In this document: positions 55,089 through 57,666 of the stretch, piece by piece
Position numbering within the stretch: the stretch's first letter is position 1
How the letters are laid out: each line of letters opens with the position of its first letter
Translations under genes and position numbers: made by a program
Notes under the pieces: generated by a model
Seen by the model: the letters and a program-made list of their open reading frames with translations, nothing else
Told to the model about the DNA's origin: nothing
Database searches by the model: none
Origin: Gammaproteobacteria bacterium
GTDB lineage: Bacteria > Pseudomonadota > Gammaproteobacteria > Steroidobacterales > XN24
Assembly (NCBI GenBank): GCA_024640085.1
Contig: JAHEFR010000011.1
Coordinates: forward strand, 1-64,000
Length of the DNA: 64,000 bases
Direction of reading: 5' to 3'

Positions 55089-55256
55089 CGAGCACTCCGG
55101 CGCGGACCTTCCGAAACCGCTGGCCGCCGCCATAAGTAATTCTACCTACGAGCGTCGCTGTTACTGATTTTGGGCGTTGCTGATGCTATTGTCTGTGCGC
55201 TGCGCTCGCACGCGGGCGTAAAAACAATGATGATCGATTGGATTTGGGAGGTTCTG

Positions 55257-55820
55257 ATGAAGAAGATCGTAGCATCGCTGGTGTGCATGATCGGCGTGCT
55301 GGGTATCTCCAGCACGGTCGTTGCACAGGAAGTGACCTGTGGGGACCTGAAGTGGGGCGACTGGGTCACCGAGCGACCGTACATGGCGACGTCCTGCGCG
55401 GGAGTGGTGGAACGCAACGGCGTGCTCTACGCGAAGTTCAACGCCAAGATGGAGCGGTATTTCAACAACGGCGACGTCAAGCTGCGCATCCTTGCGCCTG
55501 ACGGCTCATTCGATGTCGCCACTTTCCGTCCGCCGTCGGATTTCCTCGCCGACGTGGGCGGTGAGCCGACTCCGTTCTCGAAGATCCCAACCGGCAAGGA
55601 CATCCGCGTCTATATCCCGGAAGGCCGGTTCACGCTGGTCAGTTTCGAGAAAGAAGTGGTTGTCGAAGCTGTGGCAGTGGAAGAGCCCATGGAAGAGGCC
55701 GTGGTAGTGGAGGAAGTCGTCATGCCCACCACCGCCAGCCCGCTGCCACTGATCGGACTGGCAGGCGGCTTGTTCGTCATGCTCGGTGGCCTGGCGGGAT
55801 ACCTGCGCCGCCGCGGCTGA
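55257..55820 (+). CDS. Small exported protein with LPxTG-like C-terminal anchor signal
   Basis: 187 residues from ATG 55257 (TTTGGGAGG ahead). The signal peptide is 1-23 (ISSTVVAQ). A compact domain with Cys28 and Cys47 follows and has no family I recognise. Then come an acidic Val/Glu-rich stalk (about 134-155), the motif MPTTASPLPL (156-165), a hydrophobic helix with Gly-rich face (about 164-182) and a final GYLRRRG. This tripartite end (short motif, helix, Arg cluster) is the layout of sortase-type sorting signals, with MPTTA in place of LPxTG. The gene stands alone, with a strong terminator behind it. Confidence 0.8.
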   Translation: MKKIVASLVCMIGVLGISSTVVAQEVTCGDLKWGDWVTERPYMATSCAGVVERNGVLYAKFNAKMERYFNNGDVKLRILAPDGSFDVATFRPPSDFLADVGGEPTPFSKIPTGKDIRVYIPEGRFTLVSFEKEVVVEAVAVEEPMEEAVVVEEVVMPTTASPLPLIGLAGGLFVMLGGLAGYLRRRG

Positions 55821-55847
55821 TCCGGGATTCGATGTCCCTCTAACGGA

Positions 55848-55875
55848 AACGGGGCCCCTGGGGGCCCCGTTTTTT
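55848..55875 (+). terminator. Strong intrinsic terminator
   Basis: ACGGGGCCCC-TG-GGGGCCCCGT is a perfect 10-bp stem followed by a run of T residues (55870-55875). It ends the transcript of the small exported protein, 28 bases after its stop codon. Confidence 0.92.
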
Positions 55876-55936
55876 ATTGGCGCCGACGGTTCCGGCGAAT
55901 GTCTTATGGCGGGTTGTCGACGGTGGCGATAGGATT

Positions 55937-55965
55937 TTGCATTGCCTGCAAGAAACCACTATATT
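55937..55965 (+). promoter_or_regulatory. Candidate sigma-70 promoter of aceBA
   Basis: TTGCAT (55937-55942), a 17-base spacer and TATATT (55960-55965, five of six consensus bases). The predicted start near 55972 gives an unusually AT-rich leader of about 87 bases with TTGGAGG just before the aceB ATG. The gap 55876-56058 holds no gene. Confidence 0.5.
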
Positions 55966-56058
55966 GTGCAGCGCAGAAAACATCACTCCCTCAACCTCGA
56001 GTGGAACCTAAATAACGTTGATCAACTTATTGTTTTATATTAAGTTGGAGGTCTATAG

Positions 56059-57666
56059 ATGAGTCGAAGCTCGGCGGCTCAAACCGGTCCCGCAGCAGAG
56101 GTTATTGGCCCGATCCATGCGGGCTTTGAGGAAATCCTGACCCCGGAGGCGCTGGGTTTCGTTGCCGATCTGGCGCGGAGGTTCGCCCCCCGGGTGCAGG
56201 AACTGCTGGAGCGACGGAGGGACCGGCAGCAGGCCATCAAGGCCGGCGCGCGGCCGGATTTCCTGGCCGAGACCCGCCAGGTCCGCGAATCGGACTGGAG
56301 CATCGCGGGGATTCCCGCGGACCTCACCGATCGTAGGGTGGAGATTACCGGTCCCACGGACCGGAAGATGGTCATCAACGCGCTCAATTCCGGTGCCAAT
56401 GTTTTCATGGCCGACTGCGAGGATTCGCTGACGCCGACCTGGTACAACGTGATCCAGGGACAGATCAACCTCCGGGACGCCGTGGACCGCAGCATCAGCT
56501 TCCACAGCCCCGAGGGCAAGGAATACCGGCTCGCGGAGAAGACCGCTGTGCTGCTCGTCAGGCCCAGGGGATGGCATCTTTACGAGAAGCACATCCATGT
56601 CGACGACCAACGGGTGCCCGGCGCCTTCGTCGACTTTGGTCTCTATCTGTTCCATAACGCCGACCGGCTCCATGAATCCGGCACCGGGCCCTACTTCTAT
56701 CTGCCCAAGCTCGAGAATCATCTCGAGGCAAGGCTGTGGACCGAGGTGTTCGAGTATTCGGAGAACCGGCTGGGGCTGCGCCACGGTACGATCAAGTGCA
56801 CGGTCCTTATCGAGACGATCCTCGCCGCCTTCGAGATGGATGAAATCCTGTACGTCCTGCGCGACTACATCGTCGGGCTGAACTGTGGGCGCTGGGATTA
56901 CATCTTCAGTTTCATCAAGAAATTCCAGGACGATCCCGGCTGCGTCCTCCCGGATCGCGGCCAGGTCACCATGGCGACCCACTTCCTGCGTTCGTATTCC
57001 CAGTTGTCGATCAAGACCTGCCACCGGCGCGGCGCACTGGCCATCGGCGGCATGGCCGCCCAGATCCCGATCAAAGGCGACGAGGCGGCCAACGACATCG
57101 CCATCGGCAAGGTTGTCCAGGACAAGGAGCGGGAAGCGGGGGACGGCCATGACGGGACCTGGGTCGCACACCCGGGTCTGGTCAAGCTGGCGCGGGACGT
57201 CTTTGACCGCCACATGCCCGGACCCAATCAGCTGCAAAGGATGCGGCGCGACGTAGAGGTAACGGCGGACGATCTGCTGGCTATCCCCGACGGCACGATT
57301 ACGGAGGACGGACTGAGGCAGAACATCAACGTCGGCATCCGCTACCTTGCCGCCTGGCTGTCCGGAAATGGCTGCGTACCGATCTTCAACCTGATGGAAG
57401 ATGCGGCCACGGCGGAGATCTCGAGGGCCCAGATCTGGCAGTGGATCCGCCATCCCGCAGGCGTCCTCGCCGATGGGCGCCGCGTGACCCGGGAACTGTA
57501 TGGCCAGGTCCGTGACGAGGAACTCGAGAAAATCCGGGACGATGTGGGCGATGCCCAGTTCGACACGGGCAACTTCGCCGCGGCAGCGGGCCTGCTGGAC
57601 AAGATTACTCTCGACGACGAGTTCGTCGAATTCCTGACCCTGGTGGCCTACGAGGCCATCGATTGA
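56059..57666 (+). CDS. aceB: Malate synthase A
   Basis: 535 residues, the length of the A isoform. Motifs: NVFMADCEDSLTPTWYNVIQGQ (near 114-135), the acetyl-CoA/glyoxylate site RPRGWHLYEKHIHVDDQRVP, LPKLENHLEARLW, and GTIKCTVLIETILAAFEMDEI. The C-terminal PIFNLMEDAATAEISRAQIWQWI carries the catalytic Asp. It condenses glyoxylate with acetyl-CoA to malate. The ATG has a TTGGAGG Shine-Dalgarno. aceA begins 34 bases after the stop, forming the glyoxylate-bypass operon. Confidence 0.96.
   Translation: MSRSSAAQTGPAAEVIGPIHAGFEEILTPEALGFVADLARRFAPRVQELLERRRDRQQAIKAGARPDFLAETRQVRESDWSIAGIPADLTDRRVEITGPTDRKMVINALNSGANVFMADCEDSLTPTWYNVIQGQINLRDAVDRSISFHSPEGKEYRLAEKTAVLLVRPRGWHLYEKHIHVDDQRVPGAFVDFGLYLFHNADRLHESGTGPYFYLPKLENHLEARLWTEVFEYSENRLGLRHGTIKCTVLIETILAAFEMDEILYVLRDYIVGLNCGRWDYIFSFIKKFQDDPGCVLPDRGQVTMATHFLRSYSQLSIKTCHRRGALAIGGMAAQIPIKGDEAANDIAIGKVVQDKEREAGDGHDGTWVAHPGLVKLARDVFDRHMPGPNQLQRMRRDVEVTADDLLAIPDGTITEDGLRQNINVGIRYLAAWLSGNGCVPIFNLMEDAATAEISRAQIWQWIRHPAGVLADGRRVTRELYGQVRDEELEKIRDDVGDAQFDTGNFAAAAGLLDKITLDDEFVEFLTLVAYEAID

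Follow-up and report, generated by a model that had tools for sequence, protein, structure and literature searches.

The attachment of proteins to the cell wall by sortases is well known in Gram-positive bacteria and has hardly been studied in Gram-negative bacteria. The gene described here (55257..55820, + strand), which lies in a stretch of 64,000 nucleotides of a gammaproteobacterial contig (the whole of which we call the window), encodes a protein whose C-terminus looks like a sortase signal, and the question arises whether the cell has an enzyme for this signal and to what the protein might then be joined. The genome (3.19 Mb in 73 contigs, at 95.8% completeness) encodes LptD, so that the host is a diderm, in agreement with a first-pass annotation of the sequence that had taken it to be Gram-negative. 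From our point of view, the protein is likely to be a second substrate, unlinked to the enzyme gene, of a class-D-like sortase whose gene lies at another place in the genome, and this sortase would attach a small OB-like domain to peptidoglycan; both cleavage and linkage are what we infer from the comparisons given below.

The window gene and its surroundings

The open reading frame encodes a predicted sortase substrate of 187 amino acids, starts with ATG and is preceded by a Shine-Dalgarno-like GGGAGG (55246..55251, +) that ends five bases 5' of the start codon. Relative to an ortholog in the same genus, pN is well below pS (0.21 vs 0.62), and the 33 C-terminal residues are the most conserved part of the protein (pN 0.09 in the same comparison), which argues for a real gene under purifying selection that is strongest in the tail. 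The other genome of the genus has the same gene order (DAHP synthase, pseudouridine synthase, the gene itself, malate synthase), which was not seen in the 3.6 kb surrounding a relative in genome G004. When 369 genomes of the class were searched with a full-length alignment (A4), matches at E≤1e-6 were found in at least two, the own one and one other, a lower bound as at most nine candidates were scored per genome. No relative at E≤1e-3 was found among plasmid records.

The gene had been described as solitary, with a locally AT-rich region before it and a strong terminator behind it. It does stand alone, and a terminator-like hairpin followed by a T-tract lies at 55845..55874 (+; -23.9 kcal/mol, z -3.67), the stability of which was equalled by 0 of 200 shuffles; a consensus scan did not have this hairpin among its listed sites. 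The AT-richness upstream is real but mild, with a GC content of 0.49–0.50 in two 120-base segments (55160–55339) against mostly 0.58–0.73 farther upstream, and a deeper dip (GC 0.39) is located downstream of the gene, at 55936–56059, before the genes for malate synthase and isocitrate lyase. This downstream segment contains one promoter-like site, with 0.4 being expected by chance.

Domains and predicted structure of the protein

On inspection, the protein starts with a signal peptide (residues 1–23; 55257..55325, +) with expected cleavage between TVVA and QE. The N-terminal domain that follows (residues ~24–128; 55326..55640, +) consists, according to alignment and model, of a two-Cys segment and a small OB-like beta barrel. 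Its cysteines, Cys28 (55338..55340, +) and Cys47 (55395..55397, +), are invariant in all 31 aligned rows, the window protein included, and are probable disulfide partners. No Pfam or NCBIfam family was assigned to the domain in a protein scan, no NCBIfam model matched the protein at E≤10, and the sole Pfam trace was the Gram-positive anchor PF00746, under its cut-off (E 0.77). In the AlphaFold2 model, the mean pLDDT per ten residues is 84–97 for residues 31–130 and about 50 in the stalk, an acidic Val/Glu segment of residues ~130–154 (55644..55718, +). Foldseek found no match for the domain below E 0.001, and a second look with VIA-align gave only Z scores below 5, the best being a weak match to CusF (Z 4.9, rmsd 3.4, 63 aligned), with chains of IF5A, EF-P and IF1 likewise weak (Z 3.4–4.7); many of the weak structural matches are OB folds.

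The stalk leads into a tail with the sequence MPTTASPLPLIGLAGGLFVMLGGLAGYLRRRG, in which an LPxTG-like motif, a hydrophobic helix and a basic end follow each other at the C-terminus, as in a sorting signal. The motif, as defined by the aligned tails, is MPTTA (residues 156–160; 55722..55736, +) within MPTTASPLPL (156–165), with a cut between Thr159 and Ala160 being predicted by analogy with a class D sortase (PMC3297441); the hydrophobic helix spans 55743..55802 (+) and corresponds to a helix of residues 163–186 in the model, and the Arg cluster occupies residues 184–186 (55806..55814, +), the protein ending in RRRG. The first-pass annotation had thus read the architecture correctly with respect to the exported two-Cys domain outside the recognised families, the acidic stalk and the tripartite C-terminus alike.

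In an alignment of 14 tails from 11 genomes (profile A1), of which the window tail is one row and all rows of which were retrieved by their relation to the window protein and not via a sortase, the motif shows no variation at P, T, A and the second P (14/14). A profile made from 33 tails of other families, all from sortase loci of named genomes (see below) and all on proteins without the N-terminal domain, detects the tail of the window protein with E 6.7e-10 among the 1111 reading frames of the window, with the next best match at E 0.64; this test is only partly independent, because the 33 tails were picked with A1, which includes the window tail. On this evidence, the tail is more than a chance match.

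The sortase of the genome

Exactly one sortase over the Pfam cut-off is encoded in the genome (C43:9138-9932, -; PF04203 91–93 bits vs 26.6). Directly downstream and on the same strand lies the gene for a protein of 180 amino acids that ends in LPDTAGPVPLIGLLGILLLGLGTAISRLRRRTSA and whose similarity to the window protein is confined to the latter's second half; the window gene itself lies apart from the sortase. When the genome was searched with profile A1, the window protein (E 8.5e-17) and this sortase neighbour (E 3.0e-15), both rows of A1, were retrieved and no further protein, the third match being noise (E 0.47). The sortase neighbour is hence the only other protein with the tail found in the genome. 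The idea of a dedicated sorting system, which would have been refuted had the genome shown neither a sortase-like enzyme nor a second protein with the same terminal motif, is supported by these two results.

Residues H204, C261 and R273 (first-row numbering) of the sortase are invariant in nine of nine aligned rows, and we take them, from the motifs, to be the catalytic residues. By sequence, the nearest solved chains are 2ln7 (E 9.5e-19), presumably SrtC of Bacillus anthracis, and then 4d70, both of which we take to be class D enzymes.

For comparison we used 196 genomes, the own one included, 65 of which contain a total of 74 sortase genes according to PF04203. Two profiles, one of 14 clear class GN rows and one from alignment A3, split these into 56 sortases of class GN and 18 of the group of the C43 sortase, referred to as type B. 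In a quick tree of 64 rows, type B falls on one side of a branch with support 89, its nearest group being three class D rows from Bacillota, two of which are near-identical, and class GN is on a separate branch (support 99); of 67 rows given, the Streptomyces and Acetoanaerobium references and one class GN row had been removed by a length or motif filter. The C43 sortase stays below the curated class GN cut-off (TIGR03784, 85 bits vs 158.25), while both of the two class GN sortases scanned, out of 56, pass this model. It also stays below the curated class D cut-offs (NF033746, 119.4 vs 165; NF058671, 127.7 vs 140), as do most of the nine type B sortases scanned, with 117–138 bits for NF033746 (0/9 pass) and 123–154 bits for NF058671 (2/9 pass). 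We therefore do not file the enzyme as class D, the chemistry of which may for the same reason not carry over, and call it class-D-like on the basis of sequence resemblance. A dedicated sorting enzyme, as had been suggested, is thus present, but it resembles class D rather than class E. Relatives of the sortase occur on 31 plasmid records, and the 15 listed all belong, by genus name, to Bacillota or Actinomycetota.

A rhombosortase, another candidate that had been named, is also encoded (C43:26138-26587, L228; TIGR03902, 141.7 bits vs a cut-off of 84). The one GlyGly-CTERM match of the genome that exceeds the cut-off, barely so, belongs however to another protein (C44:115610-115675, L231), and the window protein has no match to TIGR03501, either among the genome matches at E≤10 or in the protein scan. 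No exosortase was found in the genome at its 95.8% completeness, and the window protein has no PEP-CTERM match. Two separate tail-sorting systems seem to coexist in this organism.

Co-occurrence of tail, sortase and N-terminal domain

At E<1e-6, the tail is present in 14 of the 196 genomes, 11 of which came from the search for relatives of the window protein and three (G034, G103 and G136) from the tail profile. A type B sortase occurs in 13 of these 14 genomes and in two of the 182 others (Fisher 2e-17, with kinship ignored), whereas the tail has no link to class GN sortases (6/14 vs 49/182 genomes, p 0.22). Left out of this count were ten genomes with matches at E 4e-6 to 0.01 (G081, the strongest with 4.3e-6, G033, G071, G006, G104, G120, G129, G053, G158 and G193), which by eye fall into membrane helices belonging to other proteins, frames that seem to be non-coding, one probable class GN target (G006) and one tail of the PEP type (G158). 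A further weak match on contig C40 of G136 (5.1e-5) truly lies beside a sortase, and this genome is one of the 14.

Three genomes depart from the pattern. G177 has the tail and no type B sortase was found in it, an enzyme that may be cut off because the contig starts inside the tail gene. G009 and G072 have a type B sortase and no tail protein was found in either; the contig of G009 breaks off 139 bases after the sortase frame, and of the two type B sortases of G072 (L033, L086) the copy on C125 lies ~0.6 kb from the contig end and the copy on C38 well inside its contig, which makes the latter a real exception. The substrates of the G072 sortases may use another motif.

The N-terminal domain can be followed independently of the tail. 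A domain profile identifies a clear N-domain protein in 15 of the 196 genomes (E 2.5e-15 or better), and these proteins carry the tail in all eight genomes with a type B sortase and in none of the seven without, where the whole tail is missing and not the motif alone. G034, which has sortase and tail and matches with the OB half only (E 4.0e-6), was omitted from this count; with it the figures would be 9/9 vs 0/7. Both states, the domain with and without tail, are found within a single family (f15). The comparison across genomes shows the pairing of signal and sortase as genes, their joint occurrence and the lack of the signal where this type of sortase is lacking.

Two of the seven genomes without type B have a class GN sortase only (G140, L017/L223; G171, L021), and there the domain is followed by ~180 more residues without a sorting signal; the protein of G140 has a CusF-like Pfam match just below the cut-off. 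Genome G060 yielded no sortase, and there the domain is followed in one protein (L222:640-1974, -) by an OmpA domain (PF00691, 75.6 bits), a single case. This fusion protein also has a Cys-rich repeat (PF00839). OmpA domains bind the diaminopimelate of peptidoglycan non-covalently, and tail and OmpA domain therefore look like two ways of holding the same N-terminal domain at the wall. As a C-terminal module of this domain the OmpA-like part resembles the sorting tail, and unlike the window protein the fusion has no sorting signal.

Type B sortase neighbourhoods in named genomes

When named genomes were scanned with A3, the sortase alignment, at least 568 relatives were obtained; the analysis below covers the best 80. 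In 68 of these 80 loci, one open reading frame has the tail at E≤0.01, and among the 3395 reading frames of the best 80 of at least 568 loci no tail match at this threshold was found beyond those 68. The tail gene is on the strand of the sortase in 65 of the 68 (58 downstream, 7 upstream; 64 within 1.1 kb) and on the opposite strand in three; 12 of the best 80 loci are without a tail gene, three of them ending within 0.6 kb downstream. The two-Cys N-terminal domain of the window protein recurs in 32 of the 65 same-strand tail proteins of these best 80, and the window protein belongs to a usual partner family of the type B sortase.

The consensus motif of the tails in the best 80 of at least 568 loci is [LM]-P-x-T-A/G-S-x-L-P-L. 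In this wide set the motif is looser than in the 14 aligned tails, with Met at position 1 in 17/62, Gly at position 5 in 18/62 and the second Pro kept in 44/62, the 62 being the same-strand tails in agreement with an [LM]P pattern that had been set beforehand (3/65 deviated from it). The records among these best 80 come from Acidobacteriota, Pseudomonadota and Myxococcota, which are unseparated on the tree, where many forks are weak, and include cultured strains of Parahaliea (P. maris), Seongchinamella, Halioglobus and Granulicella.

With a loose pattern, lipobox-like N-termini were seen in 7 of the 65 same-strand tail proteins of the best 80 of at least 568 loci, by eye convincing only in L199. 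There, a very short sortase neighbour (L199:2874-3284, +) combines a lipobox-like start with a Pro/Glu/Val stalk and a sorting signal, and may be a lipoprotein that the sortase links to the wall.

Proposed route and alternative explanations

The class D precedent, together with the fact that Gram-negative peptidoglycan carries the same meso-diaminopimelate (m-Dpm), leads us to propose the following route, in which cleavage, nucleophile and the role of the domain are what we infer. The window protein would be exported by Sec and cut by signal peptidase I, whereupon the C-terminal helix and the Arg cluster would arrest it in the inner membrane. The sortase, anchored by its N-terminal hydrophobic segment, would then cut between MPTT and AS and hold Thr159 on its active-site Cys, and the acyl-enzyme would be resolved by the side-chain amine of m-Dpm in lipid II or peptidoglycan. 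The result would be a two-Cys OB-like domain covalently tethered via a flexible stalk to the thin periplasmic wall.

That the C43 sortase recognises the window protein is very probable. A helix with an Arg cluster would by itself retain the protein in the membrane, so that the tail could be a plain inner-membrane anchor with an incidental motif; this we regard as improbable, since such an anchor would explain neither the invariance of P, T, A and the second P in the 14 aligned tails, even if they are looser in the wider set, nor why the tail tracks the type B sortase (13/14 vs 2/182 genomes) and is lost in its entirety from the N-domain proteins of the seven genomes without type B. Still further down the scale, and very improbable indeed, is processing by the rhombosortase of the same genome, an enzyme that is present and belongs to a system that likewise uses tails of motif, helix and basic end, but whose GlyGly-CTERM signal is missing from the window protein and matches over the cut-off in another protein only.

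With regard to the acceptor we are more reserved, and peptidoglycan is favoured by a small margin only. The sortase might cut the tail and pass the protein to water, i.e. release it into the periplasm, to another protein, forming a sortase polymer, or to an outer-membrane lipid or glycan, which we consider rather unlikely taken together. In favour of such an acceptor, the role of Gram-negative sortases is stated to be unknown in a 2023 paper (PMC10581121), and for rhombosortases and exosortases it has been suggested that other groups remain on the products (PMC11980579). Against it stand the class D precedent, which uses m-Dpm (PMC3297441), and the fusion of the same N-terminal domain to OmpA in G060, where no sortase was found. 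This swap of sorting signal for OmpA domain, albeit a single case, amounts to a direct prediction of the acceptor.

In going from the window protein to the whole group, one could speculate, and we do so tentatively, that Gram-negative bacteria possess a widespread sortase system, present in Acidobacteriota, Pseudomonadota and Myxococcota, by which small proteins with an OB-like domain become covalently attached to diaminopimelate in the periplasmic peptidoglycan. The comparisons connect one Gram-negative sortase subtype with a defined signal, with a group of substrates and with relatives in culture. Braun's lipoprotein is linked to the wall by an L,D-transpeptidase, and if our reading is true, diderms would have a protein-to-wall route separate from that linkage, some members of which, such as the lipoprotein-like substrate of L199, could tie the outer membrane to the wall.

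Comparison with known systems

Surveys of sortases were reportedly carried out by Comfort and Clubb (2004) and Boekhorst (2005). One earlier survey, as cited in PMC1586193, recorded one sortase-related enzyme and a few motif proteins in a small proteobacterial group. Among the literature matches listed, with subscription journals mostly outside the scope, we found no paper on an LPxTASxLPL signal or on a class-D-like sortase in Gram-negative bacteria.

Several Gram-negative systems follow the same three-part logic of the tail, namely rhombosortase/GlyGly-CTERM, exosortase/PEP-CTERM and myxosortase/MYXO-CTERM (PMC3237569, PMC1569441 and PMC11980579), with enzymes and motifs that are unrelated to those of the type B system. 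The class GN ('marine') sortase (TIGR03784, FPATAT-type target) is likewise a Gram-negative sortase with a dedicated neighbouring target, which, where found, is a large protein encoded upstream, unlike in type B.

Closest to the type B system are the class D sortases of Bacillota, with which it shares an LPxTA-type motif. SrtC of B. anthracis cuts LPNTA between Thr and Ala with m-Dpm as acceptor (PMC3297441), and one of its substrate genes lies in the operon (basI) and one elsewhere (basH; PMC3297441, PMC3208642), an arrangement that is mirrored in our genome by one substrate gene beside the sortase and a second one at a distance. The class is, however, not uniform, as a Clostridium perfringens enzyme prefers LPQTGS (PMC4498605). 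In Priestia megaterium, a class D sortase lies beside an LPXTG-anchor protein that ends in LPETASNNPL, a helix and a basic tail; there the substrate gene is upstream, whereas it is downstream in 58 of the 65 same-strand type B loci (best 80 of at least 568). What further sets type B apart from the class D systems of Bacillota is its diderm host and its extended motif, LPxTA/G-S-x-L-P-L.
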